From a virus, in IMG/VR virus record IMGVR_UViG_3300046453_000081, positions 45,236-109,235 of that record: a DNA stretch of 64,000 nucleotides; one strand, given 5' to 3'. Made by a program: the position numbers and the translations under genes. The notes under the pieces are model-generated. The model was not told the origin of the DNA. It ran no database searches and saw nothing but the letters and a program-made list of their open reading frames with translations. Positions 46,988 to 64,000 of this stretch are shown here, in pieces. Position 1 is the stretch's first letter. Every line of letters starts with the position of its first letter.

Positions 46988-47008
46988 ATTTCGCCCCTAT
47001 CTCTACAA

Positions 47009-47431: not shown

Positions 47432-47457
47432 ATAATCACCCCTGTTAACTGTATGTA

Positions 47458-47643: not shown

Positions 47644-47770
47644 TGTTAACAACCAACCCTTCTTTTGTAATATTTCTAATTATATTTTGCATTTGTGCAA
47701 AATTCAAGCATTTTCTTAGATAGAAAGAAAATGTTTCAATTTCAGACAAATCAGAGGGGTAAACAGGGGC

Positions 47771-48190: not shown

Positions 48191-48224
48191 TTAAAATCAC
48201 CTCATAAATCAATTTGTTATTACA

Positions 48225-48253
48225 ATTATATACCCATTATGAATGGATTACAA
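48225..48253 (-). promoter_or_regulatory. Promoter TTGTAA-17-TATAAT, palindrome in the spacer
   Basis: CCATTCATAATGG falls between -35 and -10, intermediate between the zone I and zone II arrangements. Drives 47771-48190. Confidence 0.72.
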
Positions 48254-48271
48254 GCCCCAAATAAACAGATG

Positions 48272-48667: not shown

Positions 48668-48698
48668 ATTAATCAACCCTTTCATTATTTGTATAATC

Positions 48699-48744
48699 AT
48701 TACACGACTTTATCCTATTTAATAGGCTGATAAAGTCGTGTAAT
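48699..48744. repeat. 16-bp inverted repeat with inner CCTATTTAATAGG
   Basis: ATTACACGACTTTATC and its exact complement flank a second small palindrome, between the helicase stop and the 48272 gene. Terminator or promoter-overlapping operator; not decided. Confidence 0.6.
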
Positions 48745-48789
48745 CGTTATACAATTTAGAAAAGATAGAAGGGGCAATAGCCCCCTCTC

Positions 48790-50829: not shown

Positions 50830-50901
50830 TGTACAATCAAACCCTTTCTTTTTTTATTTGTCTTTGTTATATCGTACCTATATGTAGTTTATGACTTGAT
50901 G

Positions 50902-50917
50902 ATTATATTTATTACTT
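50902..50917 (-). promoter_or_regulatory. Recurrent element AAGTAATAAATATAAT
   Basis: Lies where the helicase transcript would begin, just downstream of promoter 50930-50958. Confidence 0.6.
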
Positions 50918-50929
50918 GCAACTAAAATA

Positions 50930-50958
50930 AGTATAACAAAGACAAAAACAGAAAACAA
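50930..50958 (-). promoter_or_regulatory. Promoter TTGTTT-17-TATACT of the helicase gene
   Basis: 17-bp spacing, with TG before the -10. Leader of about 95 nt to the helicase start carries the recurrent element. Confidence 0.68.
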
Positions 50959-50975
50959 GATTAAGCTGTTATTTT

Positions 50976-51041
50976 CTGTTATTTCATTACCCATTTTTAC
51001 AGTCTTGTCCCGTCTAGGACAAACAGGTAATCAAATAACAG
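50976..51041. repeat. Nested inverted repeat upstream of the helicase promoter
   Basis: Outer 16-bp arms CTGTTATTTcATTACC (15 of 16 match) enclose an inner TTGTCC/GGACAA palindrome (51005-51022). Both arms contain the TGTTAT word shared with the cassette hairpins. Confidence 0.62.
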
Positions 51042-51060
51042 AAACAGGGGGCTAACCCTG

Positions 51061-51273
51061 TTAATTGTTATCAGCTTTTATCAATCTTGAAAATGGACTA
51101 GATAAAGCCCTGTTAATCATCCATTCATTAACTACAATATCTTTCATAAACTTAGAGTCTTCACTTGCCATTAAACATATGCTTTCATTGATATGTCTTG
51201 TCTTGCCTTTACCATCCTTTTCATCCATTGCTCTAACAAACATTTCAAAGCCTTTTTCAAAATTTGATAACAT
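51061..51273 (-). CDS. Hypothetical 70-aa protein
   Basis: ATG at 51273 (MLSNFEKGFEMFVRAMDEKD) after GAGAGGGTTGATTGAC. Helical. A GGGG..CCCTG hairpin follows. Function unknown. Confidence 0.64.
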   Translation of the reverse strand: MLSNFEKGFEMFVRAMDEKDGKGKTRHINESICLMASEDSKFMKDIVVNEWMINRALSSPFSRLIKADNN

Positions 51274-51291
51274 GTCAATCAACCCTCTCAT

Positions 51292-51381
51292 TTTTTTAAT
51301 TTAAAACAAAGTAATAGGAAACAATTGTTATATTGTTTCCCTTGTCTTTGTAGTAAATTTAATTGTTTTGATACATACTCT
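51292..51381 (-). repeat. Intercassette element, class C
   Basis: Minus strand: AAGACAAGGGAAACAAT, loop ATAACA, ATTGTTTCC. One of three AAGACA-type hairpins (also at 51598 and 52143). Confidence 0.55.
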
Positions 51382-51579
51382 CTAACAATCTTTTCCTGAC
51401 AATTCTAATGTGTCATCAGTAAAGAAATAATATTTCCCATCATTTTCATTGGACAATAAGCACGAATAACCATATTTAAAAATAACTACAATAGTAAATT
51501 CTTTACCTCTGTTTGAACCCAATGTACAAATCACCTTTTGACCAATTTTAAATTTTGTATTCAATTCTATCTTATTCAA
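51382..51579 (-). CDS. Hypothetical 65-aa protein, TTG start
   Basis: TTG (LNKIELNTKFKIGQKVICTL) after GAAAGGGTTGATTTGT. FKIGQKVICTLGSNRGKEFT reads like a small KOW/SH3 barrel. Function unknown. Confidence 0.62.
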   Translation of the reverse strand: MNKIELNTKFKIGQKVICTLGSNRGKEFTIVVIFKYGYSCLLSNENDGKYYFFTDDTLELSGKDC

Positions 51580-51597
51580 ACAAATCAACCCTTTCAT

Positions 51598-51668
51598 TTT
51601 TTTAAAACAAAGTAATGGGAATAGATTGTTATAGAGAATCTATTCCCCCTGTCTTTATTTTAAATCTG
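51598..51668 (-). repeat. Intercassette element, class C
   Basis: GGGGGAATAGATT, loop TCTATAACA, AATCTATTCCC; the ATAACA word is in the loop. Confidence 0.6.
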
Positions 51669-51923
51669 TTAAGGCAACAAGGCTACACTTTCACCTGTTT
51701 GAATAAAATAGGCACGTTGTAAGAATGCTAAAACATGGTCATGTTTTCCTTCCATGTATTCTTTTGCGCTTTTTTCTTCCCATTTGGTATAATCTTCAAG
51801 ATTATTCACATAAAACTTACCGTTTTTCGCTTCTTCAATACATGCCATTGCATTATCAGAAAACCATTTTCTAGTTTTTTGAATTGATTCTTCTGTTAAT
51901 TCGACTCCATTAAATTTTAGCAT
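51669..51923 (-). CDS. Hypothetical 84-aa protein
   Basis: ATG at 51923 (MLKFNGVELTEESIQKTRKW) after AGAAAGGAATGTTGATAAAT. 'W..N...CI.EA..G.f.VN....Y' is a recurring phage pattern. Function unknown. Confidence 0.66.
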   Translation of the reverse strand: MLKFNGVELTEESIQKTRKWFSDNAMACIEEAKNGKFYVNNLEDYTKWEEKSAKEYMEGKHDHVLAFLQRAYFIQTGESVALLP

Positions 51924-51986
51924 ATTTATCAACATTCCTTTCTTAACAAAATGCATTTTAACGTTTTGACAATTAATGTGTTATCT

Positions 51987-52142
51987 TCAATGATTTTGCA
52001 AATAAATATTGTATTCATGTTGTTTAGATTCAATGTAATCTTTTGCGTCTTCTCCATATTCTAAGCTAACAACTCTTAATTGTTCTTCAGTTAAAGAGCA
52101 TTCTTGAGATAACCATTGGCTAAAAGTTAAAACTTTAATCAT
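51987..52142 (-). CDS. Hypothetical 51-aa protein
   Basis: ATG after GAGAGGGTTGATTTATAA. MIKVLTFSQWLSQECSLTEE, helical. Similar in plan to its left neighbour (helix, acidic, D/E-rich end). Function unknown. Confidence 0.6.
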   Translation of the reverse strand: MIKVLTFSQWLSQECSLTEEQLRVVSLEYGEDAKDYIESKQHEYNIYLQNH

Positions 52143-52233
52143 TTATAAATCAACCCTCTCAATTTTTATTTAAAACAAAGTAAGGGGAATAGGATTCTGT
52201 TATTGACTATTCCCCATGTCTTCATTTTAAAAA
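52143..52233 (-). repeat. Intercassette element, class C
   Basis: GGGGAATAG..CTATTCCCC hairpin with an AATAACAGAAT loop, after GAAGACAT. Confidence 0.58.
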
Positions 52234-52485
52234 CTAATTTCTTTGTTCTATAGTAGAAACATGTTGTAAAACATATTCAGCGCAAATGTCTTCACCTCTT
52301 TGATAATCATAACTATTGTTATGACTTCCTACACAGATACAATCATTTCCATTATCAAAAATTTCAATCTTGTAATTATTGGGAAGGATTATCCAAAACG
52401 TATCCTCTCTACATTTTTGTAAAGGATATCCATGATTAAAAAGAGTATTGAAAACTGTTTGCATTACAGGACTATAATTTTTCAT
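52234..52485 (-). CDS. Hypothetical 83-aa protein
   Basis: Starts MKNYSPVMQTVFNTLFNHGY. Beta-rich second half. Function unknown. Confidence 0.66.
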   Translation of the reverse strand: MKNYSPVMQTVFNTLFNHGYPLQKCREDTFWIILPNNYKIEIFDNGNDCICVGSHNNSYDYQRGEDICAEYVLQHVSTIEQRN

Positions 52486-52614
52486 ATTAAAATCAACCCT
52501 TTCAAATTTAATTGGTACAATCTAATATTTTAGATTGTCCTTTCAATATTCTCTATTCAATTCTAATACAGAGAATACTCAAAGGACAGCTAAAAGCCTG
52601 TCCTATCTGTTATA
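52486..52614 (-). repeat. Intercassette element, class A (three hairpins)
   Basis: H1 AGGACAGGC..GCTGTCCT, H2 CTTTGAGTATTCTCT..AGAGAATATTGAAAG, H3 GGACAATCT..AGATTGTACC, then the leader. Shared GTCC and GGAC arms overlap. Confidence 0.65.
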
Positions 52615-52740
52615 TTAAATGAAGAATGGAACGAAAAATAATGATAAAAATATTAATGCTCCAATAATTACAAATCCATAAAATTCATCTTTATCCTTGT
52701 TATAGAAATTAGATAATACTTGATAGACATCTTGCAACAT
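52615..52740 (-). CDS. 41-aa single-pass membrane protein
   Basis: ATG after ATCAGGGGGAAATAATC. MLQDVYQVLSNFYNKDKDEF then a hydrophobic end (YGFVIIGALIFLSLFFVPFF). Preceded by the recurrent AAATAATAAATATAAT element. Function unknown. Confidence 0.6.
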   Translation of the reverse strand: MLQDVYQVLSNFYNKDKDEFYGFVIIGALIFLSLFFVPFFI

Positions 52741-52755
52741 GATTATTTCCCCCTG

Positions 52756-52771
52756 ATTATATTTATTATTT
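52756..52771 (-). promoter_or_regulatory. Recurrent element AAATAATAAATATAAT
   Basis: 15 nt upstream of the 41-aa membrane gene, overlapping the stop of the preceding gene. Confidence 0.5.
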
Positions 52772-53186
52772 AAGCGTATTGTAAACTTTTCTTATAACCT
52801 TTAAATGAGTTAATTTCAAGATTGTTAATTTCACTAATTGTTTTTGTTAGATTCTTGAACAGACTGTCAACTCTATAATGTTTTTTGTACGATTTAAAAA
52901 AATCACCTTGTTTAGTTCTTAACCAAACAATTACTCTTAATGCATCTGCCCCTATATCCCTTGTTCTATCTGTCCTAATGTCCAATGATGAATAGATGAC
53001 AATACACTTGTTCGATTGATTGGTCTTTATCTTGTAAATTCTTTCCTTGGTGTTAAAACCTTTGTTAATCAGGGGCTTTGTTATGTCCTGAATACTGTTA
53101 ATAGACAGCCCTAAACCTGTTACAATAGCCTGTAATTCTGTTTCAAATTCCTGTTTGGTGAAAACACAAAAATTTTGCTTTGCCAT
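52770..53186 (-). CDS. Hypothetical 138-aa protein
   Basis: ATG at 53186 (MAKQNFCVFTKQEFETELQA) after GAAAGGGTTGATTAAC. Alpha/beta with KCIVIYSSLDIRTDRTRDIG and ADALRVIVWLRTKQGDFFKS. Resembles small phage proteins of the 'sDIRTg..R..G.DAIRvvv' type. Function unknown. Confidence 0.68.
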   Translation of the reverse strand: MAKQNFCVFTKQEFETELQAIVTGLGLSINSIQDITKPLINKGFNTKERIYKIKTNQSNKCIVIYSSLDIRTDRTRDIGADALRVIVWLRTKQGDFFKSYKKHYRVDSLFKNLTKTISEINNLEINSFKGYKKSLQYA

Positions 53187-53271
53187 GTTAATCAACCCTT
53201 TCAAATTTGTTTATTTTAAAACCAATAAAAGAGACAACATTTTTCTGTTATCTCTTTTTTTGTTTTAAAAA
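53187..53271 (-). repeat. Intercassette element, class B
   Basis: AAAGAGATAACA..TGTTGTCTCTTT hairpin flanked by complementary TTTTAAAAC arms. Confidence 0.55.
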
Positions 53272-53631
53272 TTATCGAATAATTCCACAATCGGTAACAT
53301 ATCCTTTAAAATTTTGTCCAAGGGCAATAAAGGATATTTCATGTACTCTTTTATATTCTGCCTTTCTTGTTTTCCCTTTTCCTATCCTTTCATTAGTTTC
53401 AGTTAATGACAGATTTTCAACCATATGAGAATCAATTTCTAATAGTCTTGTAATGGAAAAATGTATCTTTGTTTCAAGCGTTTTCCATTTACCTGTTTCG
53501 TCAATACAGTTATCATATGATGACTTACTCATTGCACGATATTCTGAATCAATATCAAAATGGAAAACATTTACACCATCTTTAAAGCCTGTTATATTGT
53601 CCTCTCTTAATTCAACTTGAAACATATTCAT
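53272..53631 (-). CDS. Hypothetical 119-aa protein
   Basis: ATG at 53631 (MNMFQVELREDNITGFKDGV) after GAAAGGGTTGATTGAA. Beta-rich; basic KGKTRKAEYKRVHE. Function unknown. Confidence 0.68.
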   Translation of the reverse strand: MNMFQVELREDNITGFKDGVNVFHFDIDSEYRAMSKSSYDNCIDETGKWKTLETKIHFSITRLLEIDSHMVENLSLTETNERIGKGKTRKAEYKRVHEISFIALGQNFKGYVTDCGIIR

Positions 53632-53754
53632 TTCAATCAACCCTTTCAATTTTGGTACAAATCTAAAAAATATTTATTTCAGATTGTCCAATCAATTAAC
53701 AAGTCTGTTATATTGTTAACTGATTGGACAGCCTAAAAAATGGCTGTCATACTT
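53632..53754 (-). repeat. Intercassette element, class A
   Basis: H1 GACAGCC..GGCTGTC, H2 GTCCAATCAGTTAACAA..TTGTTAATTGATTGGAC with ATAACA in its loop, H3 AATCTGAAA..TTTAGATT, leader. Confidence 0.7.
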
Positions 53755-54000
53755 TTATCTTTCAATGACAAATAATAACCCTTCATAATTGTCTTTTTCA
53801 AAATAGGCAGATATTTTGTCACCTGTCTCCAAATCTTGAATACTGTTTTCATCTGTAAAAAAGACACCTTCACCATTAACACTATTCACTGCATAATATT
53901 CTTGGTGATTTTCTACTACTTGAACATTGGTAACAGTGTAATCAAATTTTTCTGACTGAATACCTAATAAAAATAAAAACAACATCACAACATCAAACAT
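53755..54000 (-). CDS. Membrane or secreted 81-aa protein
   Basis: Starts MFDVVMLFLFLLGIQSEKFD after GAGAGGGTTGATTTTAG. N-terminal hydrophobic segment (3-14), then a beta-rich domain (TVTNVQVVENHQEYYAVNSV). Function unknown. Confidence 0.66.
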   Translation of the reverse strand: MFDVVMLFLFLLGIQSEKFDYTVTNVQVVENHQEYYAVNSVNGEGVFFTDENSIQDLETGDKISAYFEKDNYEGLLFVIER

Positions 54001-54106
54001 CTAAAATCAACCCTCTCAAATTTGGTACGTTTTGAACGTCCTTTACATTTACACTGTTATAGCCCTTGTAAACATAAAGGACAGCCAAAAATCAGGCTGT
54101 CTGTTA
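54001..54106 (-). repeat. Intercassette element, class A
   Basis: H1 GACAGCC..GGCTGTC, H2 CCTTTATGTTTACA..TGTAAATGTAAAGG with ATAACA loop, H3 GGACGTTC..ACGTACC. Confidence 0.7.
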
Positions 54107-54430
54107 TTAGAAACAATGTTTAATAATTAAGTCTTTAATCGTTCTCATTTCGCTTGTATAGTCCTGTCCTGCAATATAGCTTGCATTCCCTTTATGATTG
54201 ATAATCAATCTACTAAAAATACCATAACTTTTTGGTAAATTATCAATCTGTATATTGCATATTGCAATATACGGTTTACAACCTTTTCTAGATTCTGACA
54301 ATAAAAATTGTTTGAATTTCCATAGCATTTCCTGTCTTTCTTCGATAGGAGTATCAATCCATTCAAATTTGACATCATCATAATGTTTTCCACTGATTAA
54401 ATTTTCAAAGTTATACTGTTTGCAATTCAC
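54107..54430 (-). CDS. Hypothetical 107-aa protein
   Basis: GTG at 54430 (VNCKQYNFENLISGKHYDDV) after GAGAGGGTTGATTTAT. Alpha/beta with YIAICNIQIDNLPKSYG. Function unknown. Confidence 0.66.
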   Translation of the reverse strand: MNCKQYNFENLISGKHYDDVKFEWIDTPIEERQEMLWKFKQFLLSESRKGCKPYIAICNIQIDNLPKSYGIFSRLIINHKGNASYIAGQDYTSEMRTIKDLIIKHCF

Positions 54431-54554
54431 ATAAATCAACCCTCTCAAATTTTTAGAACAATTTAAACTAGTGTTTAGATTGTCTTTTCAATTACTATTA
54501 TTGTTATGTTAGTAATTGAAAAGACAGCCTAAAATCTGACTGCCTTTGAAAAAA
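54431..54554 (-). repeat. Intercassette element, class A
   Basis: H1 AGGCAGTCAGATTTTAGGCT (variant), H2 CTTTTCAATTACTAA..TAGTAATTGAAAAG with ATAACA loop, H3 GACAATCTAAAC..GTTTAAATTGTTC. Confidence 0.66.
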
Positions 54555-54869
54555 TTATAGACCCCAAATATAGATATATTCATTATCTGTTACATTTTTA
54601 AAACCTTGTTTTTCCCAAAATTCAATGGCTTCAAATAACGAATAAATAATAATTGGTCTGTTATCTTGTTTTAAATTATTAATGAATTCCGTACCATGTC
54701 CTTTCCCTCTATGATTTTCTTTGACAAATAAGTCTTCTAGCAATATAGCATCATGAACATTGTTTAAGTCTGTTAAGTCATATTCATCAAGTTTATACTT
54801 TGTTGTAAATTGTTTTAACTTGAATGGCTTAATAGATACCTTAGAAAAGATATGATTAAAATTTGTCAT
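54555..54869 (-). CDS. GNAT-like acetyltransferase, compact form
   Basis: 104 aa starting MTNFNHIFSKVSIKPFKLKQ after GAGAGGTGAATT. LFVKENHRGKGHGTEFINNL supplies the acetyl-CoA loop (HRGKGHGT) and AIEFWEKQGFKN the end motif. Shorter than typical GNATs (about 150 aa), missing part of the N-terminal strands. Substrate unknown. Confidence 0.7.
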   Translation of the reverse strand: MTNFNHIFSKVSIKPFKLKQFTTKYKLDEYDLTDLNNVHDAILLEDLFVKENHRGKGHGTEFINNLKQDNRPIIIYSLFEAIEFWEKQGFKNVTDNEYIYIWGL

Positions 54870-54916
54870 AATTCACCTCTCTACACTGATTCAATAAAAA
54901 TCAGGCTGTCTGTTAT

Positions 54917-55243
54917 TTACCATTCTCTGCCCTGTATTAACATTTTTCGTTCCCATGCTATTAAATCATAATATTCACGTCTATCTTGATTGTCATTTTC
55001 AGGATAGATTTGTAATGCAATACTTGTAACCATGCTTTCATCTACATGTTTGGGCAAAGTCATTACTGTTTTGTTATTTTCCTCTATTCGGAAATAACAA
55101 TAGTAATCTGATTCACCATGTTCATTGCATTGATACCATTGCCTGTTAATCACTATTTTGATGTTGTTTTCGTTGATATCCTCATATTCATAGCGAATAT
55201 CAGGCATTTCAAATCCATAATCTTTCTGTTCATCTTGATACAT
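54917..55243 (-). CDS. Hypothetical 108-aa protein
   Basis: Starts MYQDEQKDYGFEMPDIRYEY after GAAAGGGTTGATTTAGT. Beta-rich (NIKIVINRQWYQCNEHGESD) with a short helical end. Only a remnant of the hairpin element (ATCAGGCTGTCTGTTAT) lies between it and the GNAT gene. Function unknown. Confidence 0.67.
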   Translation of the reverse strand: MYQDEQKDYGFEMPDIRYEYEDINENNIKIVINRQWYQCNEHGESDYYCYFRIEENNKTVMTLPKHVDESMVTSIALQIYPENDNQDRREYYDLIAWERKMLIQGREW

Positions 55244-55373
55244 ACTAAATCAACCCTTTCAAATTTGGTTTGGTACAATCTAGAATCAGATTGTCCTTTT
55301 TACTAATAACATGGTGCTAACTGTTATAATCGTTATTAGTAAAAAGGACAGTCCAAAAAATATGGGCTGTCTG
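55244..55373 (-). repeat. Intercassette element, class A
   Basis: H1 GACAGCCC..GGACTGTC, H2 CTTTTTACTAATAAC..GTTATTAGTAAAAAG with ATTATAACAGTT in the loop, H3 GGACAATCTG..CTAGATTGTACC. Confidence 0.7.
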
Positions 55374-55663
55374 TTATTGTTCATTCATTTTGTTTTCAAT
55401 CTTTTTATAGTACATAAGTAAATAATCAATTGCGGTTTGATTCTCTGCAATTATTTGTATGCTGTCTATAGGGGTTTTTTCAAATGCATACCATTGTAAT
55501 GGTTTTTTAAGGGTCTTAATTTTTCACATGATGTTATTTCCCCCGTCATTAGATTACAAACTGCAAATTTTTGTCCATCTCTTAACCAAGATGGAAGAAC
55601 AAATTTTCCTGTCTTTTCATTAAATTCAATTTCCATTCTTTGTGCAATGTTAACCTTTTCCAT
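55374..55663 (-). CDS. Hypothetical protein interrupted by a -1 frameshift
   Basis: ATG at 55663 (MEKVNIAQRMEIEFNEKTGK) after GAAAGGGTTGATTGAT. The opened frame stops at 55466 (65 aa), but a -1 shift on a run of five A (plus-strand T5 at 55520-55524) continues for another 46 codons with good coding character (LQWYAFEKTPIDSIQIIAEN, YLLMYYKKIENKMNEQ), ending at 55374. Either a real frameshift mutation, programmed slippage or a homopolymer error. Full product would be about 96 aa. Function unknown. Confidence 0.55.
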
Positions 55664-55775
55664 ATCAATCAACCCTTTCAAATTCGATTTGGTACAATCA
55701 AATCATTTGGCTGTCCTTTCAATCAGTCATTAGTGACAGATTCAAAGGACAGCCAAAAAGAAGGCTGTCTGTCTG
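55664..55775 (-). repeat. Intercassette element, class A (degenerate H2)
   Basis: H1 GACAGCC..GGCTGTC, weak H2 CTTTGAATC..GATTGAAAG, H3 GGACAGCCAAATG..TGATTGTACC, leader. Confidence 0.62.
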
Positions 55776-55949
55776 TTATTCAGAATAAACAAGTTCATTG
55801 TATTGTTTTTCCGCTGTCTGTCTGTCTGACCCAAAATGAAAATTCATATTCTTTCTTTCAAAGTAAATAGTATAGCCCTCACTGTCTTTAATCAGTCTGA
55901 CATCAAATCCAAATTCGTCCTGACCCTGTTTTAATACGACAAAATCCAT
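55776..55949 (-). CDS. Hypothetical 57-aa protein
   Basis: ATG after AAAGGGGGACGTTAAAAG. MDFVVLKQGQDEFGFDVRLI then GSDRQTAEKQYNELVYSE. The GACAGACAGACAG in its own coding end repeats the intergenic word. Function unknown. Confidence 0.6.
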   Translation of the reverse strand: MDFVVLKQGQDEFGFDVRLIKDSEGYTIYFERKNMNFHFGSDRQTAEKQYNELVYSE

Positions 55950-55952
55950 CTT

Positions 55953-56066
55953 TTAACGTCCCCCTTTATATTCTTTAAAACATGCAAAACAGATTGATTT
56001 TAGACCCTGTTTTACTTTTAATTGCTTACAAGATGGACAGATGAAATATTTTTTAACCTTTTTCAT
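55953..56066 (-). CDS. 37-aa zinc ribbon
   Basis: ATG after GAAAGGGTTGATTAA. MKKVKKYFICPSCKQLKVKQ; CPSC and CFAC pairs form a minimal ribbon. Its end provides the ribosome site of the next gene. Confidence 0.6.
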   Translation of the reverse strand: MKKVKKYFICPSCKQLKVKQGLKSICFACFKEYKGGR

Positions 56067-56175
56067 TTAATCAACCCTTTCAATTTTGGTACATAGCTTT
56101 GTATGTCCTTTATGTTTATACTGTTATTCCGCTATAAACATAAAGGACAGCCAAATAAATAAGCTGTCAATAGTG
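56067..56175 (-). repeat. Intercassette element, class A
   Basis: H1 GACAGCT..GGCTGTC, H2 CTTTATGTTTATA..TATAAACATAAAG with AATAACA loop, H3 GGACATAC..GTATGTACC-like. Confidence 0.66.
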
Positions 56176-56346
56176 TTAATCATAAAATTTTTCAAAGATG
56201 ATATATTTTTCAAAGTGGGCTACATTCCCTATGTCTGTTATGTCATAGCCCTTTTCTTTCATTCTGTTTACAGTATTAGCCCATTTTTCAGTGTTTTCTT
56301 CTTCCTTAAAATAGATATACTGAATTTTTTCATGAAATTTTTTCAT
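56176..56346 (-). CDS. Hypothetical 56-aa protein
   Basis: ATG at 56346 (MKKFHEKIQYIYFKEEENTE) after GAAAGGGTTGATTGAA. Function unknown. Confidence 0.58.
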   Translation of the reverse strand: MKKFHEKIQYIYFKEEENTEKWANTVNRMKEKGYDITDIGNVAHFEKYIIFEKFYD

Positions 56347-56439
56347 TTCAATCAACCCTTTCAAATTTTTAAAATCAATAAAAGGAATAACATTATTGTC
56401 ATATTATTAATGACTGTTATTCCCTATCAGATATTAAAA
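56347..56439 (-). repeat. Intercassette element, class B
   Basis: GGAATAACAGTCATTA..TAATGTTATTCC hairpin with AT-rich outer arms. Confidence 0.62.
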
Positions 56440-56739
56440 TTATCTAGTCAGTGTTTTTAGCTGTCTATCCCATGTCTTTAATTTTCTTTCAAGTTTCTTG
56501 ATTATTTCAGGGTTTTCAGCCTTTTTTAATTCGTCTTGAATTTCTTCAATTGTTTGTTTGGTTACAATTATTTTCATATCTTTTTCAATTCTTAGCCTTT
56601 GTTCGACTATCAAATCAACTGTATGTCTAGTTTTGCCATATTCTAGATATGGTGTATTCATCATAATTTTGACTGCTTTTTGTAAGTCATCACAGGCTAT
56701 ACTCATTTTTTCTAACCGTTCTTTAACTGTTAATTCCAC
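56440..56739 (-). CDS. Coiled-coil 99-aa protein, GTG start
   Basis: GTG (VELTVKERLEKMSIACDDLQ) after GAAAGGGTTGATTTGTA. Helical throughout. Function unknown. Confidence 0.64.
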   Translation of the reverse strand: MELTVKERLEKMSIACDDLQKAVKIMMNTPYLEYGKTRHTVDLIVEQRLRIEKDMKIIVTKQTIEEIQDELKKAENPEIIKKLERKLKTWDRQLKTLTR

Positions 56740-56868
56740 TACAAATCAACCCTTTCAAATTTGGTGATACAATCAAGATTTTCAGTTTTGATTGTCCTTT
56801 TCACTAATACTGTAGTGTTATCTGTTATTAGCAAAAAGGACAGCCAAACAAAAATGGCTGTCTGTTAT
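56740..56868 (-). repeat. Intercassette element, class A
   Basis: H1 GACAGCC..GGCTGTC followed by CTTTTTG, H2 CTTTTTGCTAATA..TATTAGTGAAAAG, H3 GGACAATCAA..TTGATTGTATC. Confidence 0.7.
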
Positions 56869-57237
56869 CTATTCGATGACAATTTTAAAATAAGAATTAT
56901 CATTATAGACAACATAGTAATTATTTTTATTCACTGTTATTTTTTTGATACTATCCGCTGAAAATTGTTCAGATGGGTATTTTTCATCATTTAATACTAC
57001 ATAAATAGTATTATTTTCACAAAAAACCTCTGTTATTATTCCCCTTGCTATACATGTTTGTTTTCCTGATAATAATTCTTGAATATTTTCTACATTCCAC
57101 CCATTGTGAATCGAATACTTTTTACCTTTTCTTTCAATTAATTGGTGATAGAATTCACTTTTTGATAGCTCTTTTCCAATAATTTCATTGACCTTGTTAT
57201 CTCTGTCTTTGATAAATTTTTCAGTATACTTATTCAC
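56869..57237 (-). CDS. Hypothetical 122-aa protein
   Basis: GTG at 57237 (VNKYTEKFIKDRDNKVNEII) after GAAAGGGTTGATTTGT. Helical start, beta-rich end (KITVNKNNYYVVYNDNSYFK). Function unknown. Confidence 0.66.
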   Translation of the reverse strand: MNKYTEKFIKDRDNKVNEIIGKELSKSEFYHQLIERKGKKYSIHNGWNVENIQELLSGKQTCIARGIITEVFCENNTIYVVLNDEKYPSEQFSADSIKKITVNKNNYYVVYNDNSYFKIVIE

Positions 57238-57364
57238 ACAAATCAACCCTTTCAATTTTTTTGTTTGGTACAATCTAGAATCAGATTGTCCATTCAATTA
57301 ACACTATTGTTATACTGTTATGTTGTTAATTGAATGGACAGCCTAATATCAGGCTGTCATACTG
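57238..57364 (-). repeat. Intercassette element, class A
   Basis: H1 GACAGCC..GGCTGTC, H2 CCATTCAATTAACA..TGTTAATTGAATGG with two ATAACA words in the loop, H3 GGACAATCTG..TAGATTGTACC. No T-run after H1, so it is not a plain terminator. Confidence 0.72.
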
Positions 57365-57517
57365 TTATTTTTTTGTTTTATTGACACCAAATAATCTAGT
57401 ACTGCCACAATCTTTGCATTGCCATTCTTCACATATTTCTGTTTTTATTACAATTTCATGCTTTTTTAAGTCATTACATTTTTTACAAAATACACTAACA
57501 TCATCATTTTTTAACAT
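57365..57517 (-). CDS. 50-aa zinc ribbon
   Basis: ATG after GAAAGGGTTGATTTGGA. MLKNDDVSVFCKKCNDLKKH; CKKC and CKDCG pairs. Function unknown. Confidence 0.63.
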   Translation of the reverse strand: MLKNDDVSVFCKKCNDLKKHEIVIKTEICEEWQCKDCGSTRLFGVNKTKK

Positions 57518-57632
57518 TCCAAATCAACCCTTTCAAATTATTAGAACAATCGTTATTAGATTGTCTTTCAAGTATACACTTTTGTTATAGTATAAACTTG
57601 AAAGACAGCCTAAAATCAGGCTGTCAGGTTGT
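57518..57632 (-). repeat. Intercassette element, class A
   Basis: H1 GACAGCC..GGCTGTC, H2 CTTTCAAGTTTATAC..GTATACTTGAAAG with ATAACA loop, H3 GACAATCTAATAAC..ATTGTTC. Confidence 0.7.
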
Positions 57633-58013
57633 TTATTTTAATTCTACATTAAACAACGCTTCGATAGTGTTTAATATTGTATCACTATATCCAATGATAC
57701 CTTCATACCTAAGATACATGTCAAACAATTCTTTGTTGTCGTATTTTCTCATTATCTTTTCGTCTTGACTGTTGTCATTTTCGTCAATGTCTAACATCTC
57801 TCTGACCCTACTCATAATTGTGAAGGGGATAACCCTGTCAGATACTAGACTGTTATACATAGAATCTGCCTTTTTAGAGTCTGAATAATTATGATAACTA
57901 ATGCTAGTTTTACTTTCAATTTTTATGACATATTGCCCTATGTTGCCTTTTGCTAGTTGGACAATATTTCCTTTATTGTCCTGACCCTCTTTTAAAATAG
58001 ATAAGTTTTCCAT
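57633..58013 (-). CDS. Hypothetical 126-aa protein
   Basis: ATG at 58013 (MENLSILKEGQDNKGNIVQL) after GAAAGGGTTGATTTGTAAT. Beta-rich N-terminus, then helical (FTIMSRVREMLDID). Function unknown. Confidence 0.67.
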   Translation of the reverse strand: MENLSILKEGQDNKGNIVQLAKGNIGQYVIKIESKTSISYHNYSDSKKADSMYNSLVSDRVIPFTIMSRVREMLDIDENDNSQDEKIMRKYDNKELFDMYLRYEGIIGYSDTILNTIEALFNVELK

Positions 58014-58120
58014 ATTACAAATCAACCCTTTCAAATTTGGTACGCTTTGAACGTCCTTTTTGTTTATAACTATCTAACTGTTATAAACAAAAAGGACAGC
58101 CAAATAATAAAGGCTGTCTG
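58014..58120 (-). repeat. Intercassette element, class A
   Basis: H1 GACAGCC..GGCTGTC, H2 CTTTTTGTTTATAAC..GTTATAAACAAAAAG, H3 GGACGTTC..GCGTACC. Confidence 0.7.
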
Positions 58121-58381
58121 TTATAGGTATTTATTATCATACCAATGATTAAACAATTTTTTCATTGTATAAAATCTGTCTGATAGTTCTTTTAATTTTT
58201 CGTCCTTGAAATATAAAGACAAATCCCAAATTTCAATGTCTAGATTATCAATTGAAATTATTACATCTAATTGTAAATTTTCATCAAATGATAGAAATTC
58301 TTCCTTTGATATTTTTTCAATCAAAGAAAATTTTTTAATCAATTTTTCACTAGAAATTTGTACATAATTTTGCATATCCAT
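58121..58381 (-). CDS. Hypothetical 86-aa protein
   Basis: Starts MDMQNYVQISSEKLIKKFSL after GAGAGGGTTGATTTATA. Acidic helical. Function unknown. Confidence 0.65.
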   Translation of the reverse strand: MDMQNYVQISSEKLIKKFSLIEKISKEEFLSFDENLQLDVIISIDNLDIEIWDLSLYFKDEKLKELSDRFYTMKKLFNHWYDNKYL

Positions 58382-58477
58382 TATAAATCAACCCTCTCAA
58401 ATTTGTTTTTAAAGCTAATGAAATGGATAACACTATTATCATACTGTTATAGTGTTATCCATTTTTTAGGCTTAAAA
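58382..58477 (-). repeat. Intercassette element, class B
   Basis: GGATAACACTAT..ATAGTGTTATCC hairpin with AACAGTATG loop; outer AAGC/GCTT arms. Confidence 0.62.
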
Positions 58478-58813
58478 TTAAGCTGTCACTAGAATTATTT
58501 CACCCTGTGATAATTTAAAATATTGTTGGTTGTTATGTCCCAATAAATCTAACATGGTGTTAAGACTATCCCTATCACTGTTAGAATACCCATAATAATA
58601 GACAATCTCATTATCATTGTATTCAAGTGTTAACGTCCCATAATGAAACAATCTTGTTACAAGACATTTCGGGTCGGGGTATATTTCTTGCTCAATTCTA
58701 TATACTTCATTTCCCTGTCTTTTTAAGGACATACTAACAAAATCATCTGTTTTTTCAAATGCTTTGTTTAAAAGATTCTCGATAATTTTTACACTTTTTC
58801 CATATCTTGCCAT
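58478..58813 (-). CDS. Hypothetical 111-aa protein
   Basis: ATG at 58813 (MARYGKSVKIIENLLNKAFE) after GAAAGGGTTGATTTTAGTT. Beta-rich centre. Function unknown. Confidence 0.66.
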   Translation of the reverse strand: MARYGKSVKIIENLLNKAFEKTDDFVSMSLKRQGNEVYRIEQEIYPDPKCLVTRLFHYGTLTLEYNDNEIVYYYGYSNSDRDSLNTMLDLLGHNNQQYFKLSQGEIILVTA

Positions 58814-58938
58814 AACTAAAATCAACCCTTTCAAATTTGGTATAATCTAGGATAAAAATAATCTTTGATTGTCCTTTCATTTTCCACCATAGGCAGAAAA
58901 TCAAAGGACAGCCAAATAAATGGCTGTCTGTTATAGGG
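58814..58938 (-). repeat. Intercassette element, class A
   Basis: H1 GACAGCC..GGCTGTC, H2 CTTTGATTTTC..GAAAATGAAAG, H3 GGACAATCAAAG..TAGATTATACC. Confidence 0.66.
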
Positions 58939-59130
58939 TTATTTCTCAATATATAATACCCTGTTAAATTTTTCTGACAAATGACACTTAATTCCCTTTT
59001 CAAGCAATACATCATATACTTTTTGTAATTCCTCTCTATTGCCTAAAATCTGATAATTTTTGGAAAATTCGTCAATAGATAACCATTTGCTTATAGTCTT
59101 AACTAGTTTTGATAAATCTTTCTTTGCCAT
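58939..59130 (-). CDS. Hypothetical 63-aa protein
   Basis: Starts MAKKDLSKLVKTISKWLSID after GAGAGGGTTGATTTTATT. Function unknown. Confidence 0.62.
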   Translation of the reverse strand: MAKKDLSKLVKTISKWLSIDEFSKNYQILGNREELQKVYDVLLEKGIKCHLSEKFNRVLYIEK

Positions 59131-59213
59131 AATAAAATCAACCCTCTCAAATTTGTTTTTAAAGCTAATGAAAAGGATAACAACCTTGTTATGTTGTTAT
59201 CCTCTTTTTAATT
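59131..59213 (-). repeat. Intercassette element, class B
   Basis: GGATAACAAC, loop ATAACAAG, GTTGTTATCC then TTTTC; could also terminate. Confidence 0.64.
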
Positions 59214-59390
59214 TTAAAATCCATCAAAATAGATAACCGCTATTATTTCCCTTGTAGCCTTTAATTCGATGCCTATTTTATTTCCATTGTTGTATAGGTT
59301 AACTTTATGGGCTGTCAATCCATTACCCCTCAAAATAGCCCTCAGTTCTTTTTGTTTTTTTATTGATAGTTCTTTCATTTTTATTAACAT
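59214..59390 (-). CDS. Hypothetical 58-aa protein
   Basis: ATG after GAAAGGGTTGATTTTAG. MLIKMKELSIKKQKELRAIL then strands to the end (NKIGIELKATREIIAVIYFD). Function unknown. Confidence 0.6.
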   Translation of the reverse strand: MLIKMKELSIKKQKELRAILRGNGLTAHKVNLYNNGNKIGIELKATREIIAVIYFDGF

Positions 59391-59486
59391 CTAAAATCAA
59401 CCCTTTCAAATTTTTTTAAAGCCAATGAAGGAAATAACTCTATTTTCATAGTGTTAACTGTTATTTCCTTTTTTGCTTTAAAACTA
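59391..59486 (-). repeat. Intercassette element, class B
   Basis: AAGGAAATAAC..GTTATTTCCTT hairpin with AGTTAACACTATG loop. Confidence 0.6.
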
Positions 59487-59966
59487 TCAACCTGTTATTT
59501 TAACCTTTGATTTTTTGTTTGCTGTCTGTATTGTTTCTTTTCCGTATTTGTTAACCTTGTAATCGTAACTAGTAGCCTTTTTTCGTTTGGTTGTAAGATT
59601 TTCTGTCCAATACCATTTTTTATTTGACCCTGACCACTTAAAGCCAAGGCTTTTTAGAGTCTCTTTTATGGAATAAGTTTCACCATATACCCAAATCCAA
59701 GACCCTATAATGTCAATTGTTATAGCGTCAAATTTTACAATGTTATTAACAACGTCACGATAGTTAAAGCTGTCTGTATGTCCTTCTTTGTCTGTCTTAA
59801 CGTCTTTCAATTGTGCAAAAAGATTGTCATACTCATTATTGATATCTTGCATAATTTTGGTAGTATCTTTATCTCTGTTTAAATCAGGGTGAAATTGTTT
59901 TGCAAGCGTCTTGTATGCCTTTTTCAATTCTTCCATAGTGGTAACGTTTTTAAAGTATTTATACAT
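59487..59966 (-). CDS. J-domain (DnaJ-like) protein
   Basis: 159 aa starting MYKYFKNVTTMEELKKAYKT after GAAAGGGTTGATTTTAG. Residues 1-60 form a J domain with the HPD tripeptide at 26-28 (QFHPDLN). There is no G/F region or zinc centre. The C-terminus holds IIGSWIWVYGETYSIKETLK and KWSGSNKKWYW, a small domain seen with J domains in mobile-element proteins. J proteins stimulate host DnaK, so recruitment of host chaperones to phage DNA metabolism is plausible. Confidence 0.8.
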   Translation of the reverse strand: MYKYFKNVTTMEELKKAYKTLAKQFHPDLNRDKDTTKIMQDINNEYDNLFAQLKDVKTDKEGHTDSFNYRDVVNNIVKFDAITIDIIGSWIWVYGETYSIKETLKSLGFKWSGSNKKWYWTENLTTKRKKATSYDYKVNKYGKETIQTANKKSKVKITG

Positions 59967-60045
59967 CTAAAATCAACCCTTTCAAATTTTTTAAAGCTAA
60001 TGAAAAGGTTAACACTGCTGTTATAGTGTTAACCCCTTTTTAGTC
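59967..60045 (-). repeat. Intercassette element, class B
   Basis: GGTTAACACT, loop ATAACAGC, AGTGTTAACC. Confidence 0.64.
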
Positions 60046-60438
60046 TTAAAATTGGTTTATGTTACGTCTAACTAGTGTTAATTGGTCAGGCTTGTTAAAG
60101 TGGTCTTTTCTGTCAAAAACTTTTTTGGCTTGTTTGTCTGAAAATCCTACCTTGGTTAAAATCTCGTATGACCCCCTAGAACCTTCACCATGATATCCAA
60201 ACGAACAACCATAAAAAATAACTGTCTGTCCTGTTATAGTGAATAGTTTCAAACGATACCAATTCTTTGAATCATATTGCAATATAGCCCTTTTTACAGG
60301 TGACATATATTTTTCAATATGCTTAAAAAATTCTAATGACTGTTTAGTAATGCCATTAGCATATAGATTATAATTTTTGTCTTTGATGTGTGTTACCCCT
60401 CTTTGAATATCTCTTTTTAAAATTGTTTGCCCCAACAT
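60046..60438 (-). CDS. Hypothetical 130-aa protein
   Basis: Starts MLGQTILKRDIQRGVTHIKD after GAAAGGGTTGATTTT. Basic, beta-rich centre (LKLFTITGQTVIFYGCSFGY). Function unknown. Confidence 0.67.
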   Translation of the reverse strand: MLGQTILKRDIQRGVTHIKDKNYNLYANGITKQSLEFFKHIEKYMSPVKRAILQYDSKNWYRLKLFTITGQTVIFYGCSFGYHGEGSRGSYEILTKVGFSDKQAKKVFDRKDHFNKPDQLTLVRRNINQF

Positions 60439-60538
60439 AAAATCAACCCTTTCAAATTTGTTTTAAAGCTAATGAAGGAAATAACATTTTACCTATGTTG
60501 TTAAGGTTGTTATTTCCTTTTTTGCTTTAAACTGTCTG
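60439..60538 (-). repeat. Intercassette element, class B
   Basis: AAGGAAATAACA..TGTTATTTCCTT hairpin, TTAACAACA in the loop. Confidence 0.62.
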
Positions 60539-60811
60539 TTAGCTTTTTGTTTTAAATTTTAATTCAGCGTTTTCACTGTCAGATGAATAATAACCATTGG
60601 AAAAGCTATTGAATTCGCTGTTATATGTCCAAACTACATAGGGCTGATATGCTTCTTGTTTATAGCAAAGCGCTACAAATAAATATTCGTCTAATGGGTT
60701 ATTTGTCAAATATCTAAAATCTAACAATTCGAAGCCCATGTTTTTGGCTGTCATTGTAGCCTTTTCTTTCATTTCTAAACGGTTTTCCAATCTTGTATAA
60801 ATTTCTACCAT
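60539..60811 (-). CDS. Hypothetical 90-aa protein
   Basis: Starts MVEIYTRLENRLEMKEKATM after GAAAGGGTTGATTTAAC. Beta-rich; YLFVALCYKQEAYQPYVVWT. Function unknown. Confidence 0.66.
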   Translation of the reverse strand: MVEIYTRLENRLEMKEKATMTAKNMGFELLDFRYLTNNPLDEYLFVALCYKQEAYQPYVVWTYNSEFNSFSNGYYSSDSENAELKFKTKS

Positions 60812-60934
60812 GTTAAATCAACCCTTTCAATTTTGGTACGCTTTGAACGTCCTTTTCATCATTATCATAGTGATTATATTTATCACCTGTTAATAACAAA
60901 AAGGACAGCCAAATGATAAAGGCTGTCTGTTATC
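60812..60934 (-). repeat. Intercassette element, class A, with recurrent motif in the loop
   Basis: H1 GACAGCC..GGCTGTC, then an H2 whose loop holds GGTGATAAATATAAT (60873-60888), H3 GGACGTTC..GCGTACC. Only place where the two repeat families coincide. Confidence 0.68.
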
Positions 60935-61222
60935 TTACTTTTCCTTTTTTTGGTGGATATCCACCATGTTTTCATATGTTGTTATAACCAAATTATTGAT
61001 ATCTCTTATAAATTGTCTTCTTTGTTGATACAAAGGTGAACGAATGTCATTAATCTGACTGACATGTTCAATTAATTCCTTTGACATCTTTTCCATTTTT
61101 TCATGTTGTTCAATAGCAGGCTTGTAACTTTTTTCCGTTTCCATTAATACTATTGCATCATTGGAAATTTCTGTTAATACCTCAATAATTTTTTCATCTG
61201 ATAAACCTGTAAACCATGCCAT
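60935..61222 (-). CDS. Hypothetical 95-aa helical protein
   Basis: ATG at 61222 (MAWFTGLSDEKIIEVLTEIS) after GAAAGGGTTGATTGTA. Helical, with a coiled coil around QHEKMEKMSKELIEHVSQIN. Function unknown. Confidence 0.65.
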   Translation of the reverse strand: MAWFTGLSDEKIIEVLTEISNDAIVLMETEKSYKPAIEQHEKMEKMSKELIEHVSQINDIRSPLYQQRRQFIRDINNLVITTYENMVDIHQKKEK

Positions 61223-61320
61223 TACAATCAACCCTTTCAAATTTGTTTTTAAAGCTAATGAAAAGGATAACAACCTTGTTGTTATCCACTTTTTAGTTTT
61301 AAAACTGTTTTTACTGTCTG
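61223..61320 (-). repeat. Intercassette element, class B
   Basis: GGATAACAACAAGGTTGTTATCC compact hairpin with outer TTTTAAA arms. Confidence 0.6.
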
Positions 61321-61539
61321 TTATAGCCCCAATTCTTTTAAAGCCATTATTACCCTAACTTTGATTCCTACTGATAAGTATTCACTACGATAGAAGGATA
61401 AAAGATGTACATCTTGATAGACATCTTTTATTGCAAATGTCTGTCTTTTAATACCGCCTTCACGTCCGTAAAAGTCGATTTTTCCGTCTTCTTTAATAAT
61501 AGCCCATGCATTTTTTGTATAAGATACTTCTCTTAACAT
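61321..61539 (-). CDS. Hypothetical 72-aa protein, first gene of the cassette array
   Basis: Starts MLREVSYTKNAWAIIKEDGK after GAAAGGGTGTTAACACT. Beta-rich then a helix. Directly downstream of the TATAAT-bearing inverted repeat at 61568-61608, so probably the start of the leftward array transcript. Confidence 0.66.
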   Translation of the reverse strand: MLREVSYTKNAWAIIKEDGKIDFYGREGGIKRQTFAIKDVYQDVHLLSFYRSEYLSVGIKVRVIMALKELGL

Positions 61540-61567
61540 AGTGTTAACACCCTTTCAATTTTGTTTT

Positions 61568-61608
61568 TATTATACCTCAAAAACCCTGTTATCAAGGTTT
61601 TTGAGGTA
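61568..61608 (-). promoter_or_regulatory. Inverted repeat overlapping a leftward promoter
   Basis: TACCTCAAAAACC and GGTTTTTGAGGTA flank a 10-nt loop. Minus strand reads TTGATA, 15 bp, TATAAT, so the repeat covers both promoter boxes. Candidate start and control point for the 51-61 kb array. Confidence 0.62.
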
Positions 61609-62280
61609 TCACAAAAAGGCTTGATATTGTTATTTCCTGTCCTTTGCATCATTGACCCTATAAGGGTTAACTAGTCGCTTAAAGCGTCACAATAGAGACA
61701 AGACAATATCAAGCCCCTTGCATCTAATAACACTATTTTCATAGTGTTAAAATAGATACCCTTTTTTGAAAGGGGTTGATAAGGTGGATATAGCATACGA
61801 CTGTTACCTGTCAGGTTATTCAGGGCTATATCAGACCCCCCAATTATTTTCACCCTGAAAATCAATTCAAGGTATTCGTCCGAGTCGGAAAATATTGGGT
61901 AATAAGCGATAACCCCCTTATAAGTAGGGTAATGACTTCTTTTTAGAATTCGTGTCGCTGTCATTATGTGCGACGCTCTTACATGATATCAGCCCTATCA
62001 AGTGGGCAACAACCTAGCACCCTGACCCCCTGAATTGATTGGGGGCAGTCCTAAGGGCAAAGCCCCTAAGGGGTAACGCTATTCGGTTTGGGTGGCTAGG
62101 GCTTTAGCGTAGGACATGGGGGGTATATTGTGTCAAACATACCAAAAAATGGATTTGTCGAATACCTCAAAAAAAGGCTTTAAATCAACTTTACACTATT
62201 TCCACAGTGTTTATGTTAGTTCCTTCCAATCCGACTCGTAACACTTTCAAAAATACACAAAAAGTGTAATTTTACACATC

Positions 62281-62294
62281 GTTCGTGTTTTGCT
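62281..62294 (+). repeat. Iteron-like repeat GTTCGTGTTTTGCT, copy 1
   Basis: Exact 14-mer, direct orientation; other copies at 62322, 62609 and 63425 and a partial at 63384. Confidence 0.7.
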
Positions 62295-62321
62295 TATTTT
62301 TTGCTCAATTTCAAAATAATC

Positions 62322-62335
62322 GTTCGTGTTTTGCT
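62322..62335 (+). repeat. Iteron-like repeat, copy 2
   Basis: Exact copy, 41 bp after copy 1 and thus about four helical turns away. Confidence 0.7.
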
Positions 62336-62487
62336 GTCGTTTTTTTGGAGGTTTTCACTATATGTGCATTGTAAACAGTCATTTTTGTTCACAAGTCTGT
62401 CACAATTAGATGTTTTGTCGAATTTTGCGAAATGAAAAATCAATGATACCAAGGGTTGAAAGGCTATAAAATTTATTTTAAGATGTT

Positions 62488-62506
62488 TTCGACAAAATTT
62501 GTCGAA
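62488..62506. repeat. Palindrome TTCGACAAAaTTTGTCGAA
   Basis: 9-bp arms around one base. The half TTTGTCGAAT also occurs at 62153 and near 62416. Confidence 0.65.
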
Positions 62507-62608
62507 TGCCATAAAATATACCCTATACCCCTATGGGCAGTATGCTTATTAAACAATATGAACATAGTGAAAAGTTGATTTGTAGGGCTAAAATAGCTCT
62601 TTTTAATT

Positions 62609-62622
62609 GTTCGTGTTTTGCT
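62609..62622 (+). repeat. Iteron-like repeat, copy 3
   Basis: Exact copy of GTTCGTGTTTTGCT. Confidence 0.7.
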
Positions 62623-62684
62623 AATATCCTAAAATATGGGAAAAGATTGTGAATTATTCGGTTTGGGTCAGGTCAATTTTCAAG

Positions 62685-63010
62685 GCATAAAAAGGGCTGT
62701 CAGGCTTGATGTATCAGGCTTTTCAAGGCTTTTCAGGGGGTCATATTAACCCTTTTATTTCTATAGGGTGTAAAAAAGGGTCAGGCTGTCCGATATGGGC
62801 TATAAAGGGCTGTCATGGGCTGTCTGTCCGTTTTGCCACTATCCATAGGCTGTCAGGCTGTCAGGGGGCTATAAGGGGCTATAAAGGGCTGTCTGTCTGT
62901 AAGGGGCTAATATAGGGGCTGTCTATAGGCTGTCTGTCTGTCAGGGGTCAGGCTGTCTTGCATGGGCTAATATAGGGGCTTTTCAGGGTCAGGGGGTCAG
63001 TCTGACCCTA
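62685..63010 (+). repeat. GGCTGTC / GGGGCTA-rich tract
   Basis: At least eight GGCTGTC words, with GTCTGTCTGT, GGGGCTATAA and CAGGGTCAGG variants, in a GC-richer patch. The same heptamer forms the H1 stem of the cassette elements. A 69-aa plus-strand frame here has no ribosome site and a repetitive composition, so it is not called. Confidence 0.7.
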
Positions 63011-63424
63011 CCCCAAGTAAGTTTACACTATGTTGATAGTATTATATAGTAGTTTGTGAATTATTCACATAAAGCCCCACAATTGCCCTGTATTGGATTG
63101 ATATATAGGGGGGTCAGTTTACTATTCGGACGAAAATAACGCCTTATTGATACTAATTATTATTTCCCTAATATCTCCTAATAATTGGGAATAATTCAGG
63201 AAATAATGTATATCTATACAAGTCTATACAATCGGAGTTAACAACATGCATATAGTGAGAAGTTGATATATCAAGGTTAAATAGGGCTAATAGTAGGTTA
63301 CTGTATACGTTAGGGGGTATATGTAGATATGCATTGTATGATGTCTGACCCTTTATTCCCCTTGCAACGGTGCGGGGTGTATCGTTCGTGTTTAGGCTGA
63401 TATTGTATGTATATATATATTATT

Positions 63425-63438
63425 GTTCGTGTTTTGCT
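63425..63438 (+). repeat. Iteron-like repeat, copy 4
   Basis: Exact copy; a truncated copy (GTTCGTGTTT) lies at 63384-63393. Confidence 0.7.
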
Positions 63439-63599
63439 TATCATGTTAGATATCATTATCAGTTAGATAGTTTTAAATGAGAATCATAGGGAAATACGGG
63501 TTAATACTATGGGTAATGAATGTATATAGGGTTAATACTATGTGTGTAGTAGTAATGATGTGAGATGATATAACATAGGTATGTAAGATACGCTAACAT

Positions 63600-63845
63600 C
63601 ATAGAAAAGTATATAACATTATATGATGATATATAACTATGTATATATTAGTATAATGATATATGATGATATGATACTTTATATGATGTATGCAAGATGA
63701 TATATAATGTAGTATGATGATATATGATGTATTATAACTATGTATGATAACGTATAACAATATATGATAACGTATAATGATATATGATAATAGAGTACCA
63801 TATATAACCATGTATGATATATTATAATGACATATGATGACAGGG
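63600..63845. repeat. AT-rich satellite (TATATGATGA type)
   Basis: Degenerate repeats of TATATGATGA, TATGATAACGTATAA and similar. Low melting; a long minus frame through it is composition-driven. Confidence 0.65.
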
Positions 63846-63954
63846 TAACACTTCACTGTCAGACAGTATGTTATATAAACGACACGAATATAGTATTAAC
63901 TATCTGCCCTGTCTTGTATACCCTACCCCCTATTTATGGGATATTCTGCCATGC

Positions 63955-64000
63955 ATACCCTGGGGGGTGGGGGCGTGGGGGGGGGGGGGGGGTGGGGTGG
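63955..64000. other. Terminal G-rich run
   Basis: Ends with G-runs interrupted by single T or C. May be a genuine G-rich end, but unlike anything else in this AT-rich window; sequencing or assembly artefact is possible. Confidence 0.5.

Follow-up and report, generated by a model that had tools for sequence, protein, structure and literature searches.

The question raised by this locus is what kind of signal is carried by the hairpins that recur between small genes in a 64,000-nucleotide stretch of DNA from an uncultured phage (the window), which comprises bases 45,236 to 109,235 of the 109,235-base virus record IMGVR_UViG_3300046453_000081 and ends where the contig ends. An original prediction, made by reading the sequence, had proposed that about 13 elements, each built of three hairpins (H1, H2, and H3) and followed by a leader and a start codon, form a chain of mutually exclusive helices and constitute an undescribed multicopy RNA switch, processing, or antitermination system. 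Our analysis strongly supports these elements (class A), together with a second class of hairpins (class B), as RNA structures on the coding strand, in which selection appears to keep the pairing rather than the sequence. The multicopy, covarying RNA stands and the switch is not supported; among the options listed, processing fits best.

Thirteen class A elements were located on the minus strand at 52,491-60,927 (Table 1), and a covariance model built from them recovered exactly these 13 at 85 to 111 bits; their places are those of the prediction. The next match, at 39 bits, was a hairpin at 44371-44463 with an H1-H2-like layout. The predicted set was incomplete, since it omitted 11 two-tier hairpins (class B), which are interleaved with class A on the minus strand at 51.3 to 61.3 kilobases (kb) and fill most of the remaining gaps. 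Together, the two classes occupy nearly every small-gene gap of that interval. Every element of either class ends in a common leader, AAATTTGAAAGGGTTGATT, which resembles an extended Shine-Dalgarno sequence. The GAAAGGGTTGATT block, with at most one mismatch, was present in 33 copies in the window against 0.21 expected, mostly before minus-strand starts. By reading of the class A sequences, the upstream stop codon lies 2 to 14 nucleotides (nt) from H1, and the Shine-Dalgarno sequence follows a few nt downstream of H3. The H2 stem has approximately 13 to 18 base pairs (bp) and the class B stem approximately 20 to 28 bp. The ATAACA loop motif noted earlier proved to be real; it was read in exact form in 9 of the 13 H2 loops, and ATAACAG occurred 19 times in the gaps against 0.35 expected.

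The covariation between hairpin arms that had been suggested from the letters was borne out by the pairing counts and their controls. In the lower 15 positions of H2, 190 of 195 pairs were standard (179 Watson-Crick and 11 G.U), compared with a maximum of 175 in 5,000 arm swaps between copies. Changes on both sides were present at 13 of 13 counted H2 pairs, and none of 500 shuffles reached any of the five measures. Across the H1 and H2 alignment, 97.6% of the cells were paired, compared with 81.6% in shuffled controls and 36 to 52% in slid controls. For H3, 64 of 65 cells were paired, and arm swaps gave no more than 62. Little covariation evidence came from H1, which is largely invariant. All 20 elements tested folded more stably than their dinucleotide shuffles (z, -4.2 to -9.3), and stems of at least 14 bp with G.U allowed numbered 87 on the coding strand versus 48 on the other strand across the contig. 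Because the non-Watson-Crick pairs of H2 were 11 G.U and no A.C, selection acts on the coding-strand RNA and not on the DNA duplex.

The three helices of class A are compatible with one another in the predicted folds, and the claim that H2 cannot coexist with H1 and H3 was overstated. The H1/H2 and H2/H3 arms overlap by only 3 to 4 nt, and, in almost every copy, the minimum and near-minimum folds contained all three hairpins at once, in a stack free of linkers. Exchange at the junctions was restricted to 1 to 4 bp within a few tenths of kcal/mol. The exceptions were A8 and, in part, A7, which preferred an H2 extended through H1. In A4 and A10, the shared junction base changes in step with its partners in H2 and H3 (GTCC/GGAC/GTACC to GTCT/AGAC/GTTCT), and thus both junction pairings matter; the change in these two copies may be one event and not two. 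The folds therefore give no support to a switch made of a chain of mutually exclusive hairpins.

The gaps were scanned for sigma70-type promoters, each match being scored out of 12, with shuffled gaps as the control and with phage f2b1, which has a similar small-gene array, and the gaps of the same genome below 47 kb as positive controls. At a score of at least 9, matches were found in 5 of 27 array gaps (shuffled mean, 6.1) and in 16 of 19 f2b1 gaps (3.5 in shuffles). At a score of at least 10, they were found in 1 of 24 array gaps (1.5 expected) and in 16 of 46 gaps below 47 kb (3.3 expected). Sigma70-type promoters in the array gaps were thus not beyond chance, and the concern that the elements are only ordinary promoters does not hold for this type. 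Because the array gaps lack such promoters and the gaps below 47 kb have them, the array looks polycistronic, with RNA spacers where the neighboring region has promoters. A promoter family was observed on the minus strand at 19500-47000, in which CCCATTGNNANTGGG overlaps the -35 and TACAAT/TATAAT follows in many gaps. Additionally, long G.U-tolerant hairpins with CCA(G/T)TNNAATTGG loops, some of which enclose the -10, lie on the minus strand at 42870-46800; the hairpin at 44371-44463 is one of them.

We consider it an even chance (probability of about 0.5) that the gene array is cotranscribed and that its long H2 and class B stems serve for RNase III-type cleavage or for insulation. The array would be transcribed as a long polycistronic RNA, with the elements as structured RNA spacers. 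The host RNase III, or another nuclease of similar double-strand specificity, would cut H2 in class A and the bipartite stem in class B; alternatively, the long stems may at least be physical insulators. The upstream message would be capped at its 3' end by H1, and the downstream message would be shielded at its 5' end against 5'-to-3' decay by H3 and the strong GAAAGGGUUGAUU Shine-Dalgarno sequence, so that one long message would become protected single-gene messages. The shared junction bases would let the three helices stack without linkers and exchange arms while the RNA is made and cut, with no on/off switch needed. This proposal fits because a layout in which a 3' hairpin, a long stem, and a 5' hairpin precede a strong Shine-Dalgarno sequence is what message cutting and protection would require. 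The mapped RNase III duplexes of Bacillus subtilis have 10 to 36 bp, and U-G wobbles are favored in the distal box (PMC11780869). The stems of both classes are within this published B. subtilis range. If the elements are processing sites, intergenic cleavage would be far denser here than in SP82 or T7, and they would be a source of compact insulators for operon building. The 24 fast-evolving, structurally fixed spacers provide, in one genome, a natural mutational series for what is needed between genes. With promoters occupying the same slot in the neighboring region, the genome also shows two ways to run single-gene cassettes.

RNase III cleavage of SP82 early mRNA was reportedly described by Panganiban and Whiteley in 1983 (cited in PMC12502629). 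In the early region of phage T7, intergenic bipartite stems are cut by RNase III at approximately five sites, which yields stable single-gene messages; class B resembles these stems in form and is likened to them by layout, not by sequence. According to a published account, the stability of SP82 mRNA depends on its ribosome-binding site (PMC7509114). In the host-takeover gaps of SPO1 and SP82G, a long irregular stem recurs at the position corresponding to that of the stems here, with a purine-rich Shine-Dalgarno sequence after it, and these stems of SPO1 and SP82G may be SP82-type RNase III sites. Like SP82/SPO1 early mRNA, the present array is an early-gene array of what is probably a large Bacillota phage, with long intergenic stems and strong Shine-Dalgarno sequences. 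However, SP82/SPO1 have a handful of sites in place of 24, the sequences differ, many SP82G gaps also hold promoters, and the flush H1-H2-H3 stack is absent from SP82/SPO1.

Several points weigh against the proposal of cleavage or insulation. Cleavage of the stems is what we infer from the layout, and RNase III was not found in the phage record by Pfam PF14622; thus, the nuclease would have to be the host's. The absence of sigma70-type promoters is compatible with phage-specific ones. The sequence conservation of H1 (GACAGCC/GGCTGTC) exceeds the need of a simple cap. Short T-rich tails follow class B and some of the H1 hairpins, either of which could act as a terminator. In addition, no relative in which to look for conservation across genomes was found by exact-pattern and peptide scans of viral and genome contig collections or by megablast and distant BLAST searches of phages. 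The class A covariance model gave no convincing match among 14 loci of eight other phages (best, 19.5 bits). Four viral contigs with a single leader match each were inspected and attributed to chance. Hairpin density was below that of the array in Alicyclobacillus KKP_3916, Lactococcus 949, LC76P1, BcoS-136, SP-15, P4W, SPO1, and SP82G.

The T-rich tails bear on an alternative in which H1 and class B are weak intrinsic terminators, that is, serial attenuators that an early factor overrides by processive antitermination, with [AT][AG]ACAG as its loading site. We regard this alternative as unlikely. In most class A copies, CCTTT comes after the GC-rich H1, class B stems are followed by CCTTTTCATT-like tails, a terminator scan of 51 to 63.5 kb detected 26 sites versus 4.5 in shuffles, and the RNA-strand motif is enriched over the same region. 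However, the tails are short and interrupted, with 2 to 6 T residues within 8 nt after H1, and in class A they lie in H2's own arm; the earlier claim that H1 is not a plain terminator was supported in part. Moreover, with no promoters present, 24 serial terminators would shut the array down if nothing overrode them, and H2 and H3 are left unexplained. A further, speculative and rather doubtful proposal is genome-scale RNA handling, in which flush three-helix spacers exchange junction partners while the RNA is made and cut, and the strand-specific [AT][AG]ACAG motif, which is distributed over the array RNA in both genes and loops, recruits an RNA-binding protein. If it is true, this unknown protein, of phage or host origin, would process or protect the messages.

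In layout, the array is closest to the SAS/ESAS sequences of Cluster K mycobacteriophages and to the PeSL cassettes of T4-type phages. The latter were reportedly described by Arbiol et al. in 2010 as repeated intergenic stem-loops between small genes in plastic regions, and they carry an early promoter. Repeated intergenic stem-loops likewise separate the small genes here, but the early (sigma70-type) promoter does not exceed the shuffled level given above, and the stems, which could correspond to the stem-loop terminator of PeSLs, have short and interrupted T tails. The elements could accordingly be PeSL-like mobile regulatory or recombination cassettes, with the conserved H1 and leader ends as homology joints that shuffle single-gene cassettes and with a structure whose main role is in DNA exchange or in transcription insulation, which we consider improbable. 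The cassettes hold single genes for unrelated small proteins, the similarities of H1, H2, and H3 between elements are not significantly correlated, and A5 and A9 share an identical H3 with different H2 sequences. The GNAT gene cassette (54555-54916) has its left joint inside an H1 loop, where an H1 5' arm remains with a new small hairpin. In contrast, the promoter that defines PeSLs is absent, the bias toward G.U and not A.C points to selection on RNA, and shuffling could be an effect of the elements and not their function. The cassette layout also brought integron attC sites to mind, whose hallmarks are a GTTRRRY/RYYYAAC core and an integron integrase; the G.U bias of the RNA strand argues against such a DNA-only function.

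In Cluster K mycobacteriophages, SAS/ESAS form a conserved block at the starts of many small nonstructural genes, in one orientation and of unknown function, and about half of them have 17-bp inverted repeats with a variable spacer just upstream (PMC3203893). The sequence of these repeats conforms to a consensus, and support for hairpins in the mRNA was judged slight by the authors (PMC3203893). The present array is similar in having an asymmetric conserved block at start codons in one orientation. However, the sequence is GGGATAGGAGCCC in Cluster K, in contrast to the leader found here, and the arms of the present hairpins differ between copies yet covary.

Bastillevirinae phage f2b1 also resembles the array in its small co-oriented genes, with gaps of mostly 60 to 110 nt and a hairpin in nearly each, but its hairpin overlaps a TTGACT-N18-TATACT promoter. 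Each element of the array could instead include a promoter that is read by a phage-specific sigma factor or polymerase, the hairpins serving as terminator and operator. The same phage has dyad promoters in the gaps at 19 to 47 kb, hairpins near 42.9 and 44.1 kb hold a -10 (TATAAT) in the loop, and TATAAC is frequent in class A and B loops. This explanation is nevertheless given little credence, as there is no fixed-distance block common to class A and class B besides the Shine-Dalgarno sequence, the spacing from H1 to TATAAC varies (12, 17, or 21 nt, by reading), and ATAACA is also enriched within genes.

A true RNA switch, in which the translation of successive genes is coupled by junction exchange or by base pairing between the Shine-Dalgarno sequence and the H1 5' arm, is very improbable: the junction base that covaries with two partners, the stop codons near enough to H1 for a terminating ribosome to cover it, and the Shine-Dalgarno sequestration predicted in 6 of 13 copies are set against the predicted coexistence of the helices in nearly all copies, the 7 copies in which no sequestration is predicted, and class B, which carries the same leader without that arrangement. 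Pairing of the Shine-Dalgarno sequence with H1 was rejected as a switch because it was inconsistent across copies, and a riboswitch or attenuator with exclusive helices is not supported, since the helices coexist in the predicted folds of nearly every copy. No Rfam family scored above its gathering score in the window, and a relaxed threshold gave only subthreshold, chance-like matches, mostly microRNA-like hairpins.

Table 1. Intergenic elements and genes of the array, in positions of the window
Feature	Coordinates	Strand	Evidence	Remarks
A1, class A	60816..60927	-	folding, covariance model	H1-H2-H3 + Shine-Dalgarno block
A2, class A	58820..58928	-	folding, covariance model	
A3, class A	58020..58118	-	folding, covariance model	
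A4, class A	57522..57625	-	pairing statistics, covariance model	GTCT/AGAC/GTTCT variant, triple covariation
A5, class A	57241..57358	-	folding, covariance model	
A6, class A	56744..56862	-	folding, covariance model	
A7, class A	56069..56168	-	folding, covariance model	H1 weakened in predicted fold
A8, class A	55667..55769	-	folding, covariance model	predicted H2 extends through H1
A9, class A	55248..55371	-	folding, covariance model	
A10, class A	54434..54544	-	pairing statistics, covariance model	GTCT/AGAC/GTTCT variant
A11, class A	54005..54101	-	folding, covariance model	
A12, class A	53635..53748	-	folding, covariance model	
A13, class A	52491..52603	-	folding, covariance model	
B1, class B two-tier hairpin	61226..61304	-	pairing, folding	
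B2, class B two-tier hairpin	60441..60532	-	pairing	
B3, class B two-tier hairpin	59971..60051	-	pairing, folding	
B4, class B two-tier hairpin	59395..59483	-	pairing	
B5, class B two-tier hairpin	59136..59218	-	pairing, folding	
B6, class B two-tier hairpin	58386..58477	-	pairing, folding, covariance model	
B7, class B two-tier hairpin	56350..56439	-	pairing, folding	
B8, class B two-tier hairpin	53190..53271	-	pairing, folding	
B9, class B two-tier hairpin	52148..52233	-	pairing, folding	
B10, class B two-tier hairpin	51583..51665	-	pairing	
B11, class B two-tier hairpin	51277..51357	-	pairing	
Gene array	51061..61539	-		~28 small co-oriented genes, elements in between; products mostly unknown
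DnaJ-domain protein	59487-59966			in array
GNAT acetyltransferase	54555-54869			in array
TreP-like protein	58478-58813			in array; related to terminal-repeat protein TreP of staphylococcal Kayvirus phages

Among the larger proteins of the window that were scanned, a UvrD helicase was near that of Bacillus phage SPO1 (48%), and a DnaB-like helicase had its nearest matches in Alicyclobacillus and Brevibacillus phages. Other genes found were those for a primase, an RNA ligase, and NAD salvage. As no structural genes were obvious among the proteins scanned, the record probably represents only part of a larger phage of Bacillota type. A tyrosine-recombinase-like protein (PHROG integrase) is encoded at 17264-18496. 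One scanned open reading frame, most likely the one for this recombinase-like protein, matched the Pfam MrpR domains, which also occur in the SPbeta master repressor. In the AT-rich noncoding end at 62200-64000, GCAAAACACGAAC-like repeats are present in approximately five copies, GACAGCC repeats are numerous at 62.7 to 63.0 kb, and a homopolymer C run lies where the contig ends; this part is a possible origin or control region.

In addition, the [AT][AG]ACAG motif (TAACAG, AGACAG) was counted on the coding strand of the array genes, where it occurred 56 times against 26.3 in synonymous-codon shuffles (z, 7.5). It was also enriched at 44 to 51 kb (z, 3.9) and not elsewhere (z, 0.8). The enriched region is the minus strand at 44800-63000, the enrichment is independent of reading frame, and the motif is also present in hairpin loops. 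No such enrichment was found in five other phage early regions tested. As a lead only, the motif might be a Chi-like or RNA-protein site. A similar pattern was seen in SPO1 for AGCGG, the Chi sequence of its host B. subtilis: it exceeded synonymous shuffles on the coding strand of host-takeover genes in SPO1/SP82G, with 13 occurrences against 3.4 in the SPO1 terminal module (1-16000), but not in 60000-100000 (4 against 9.4).

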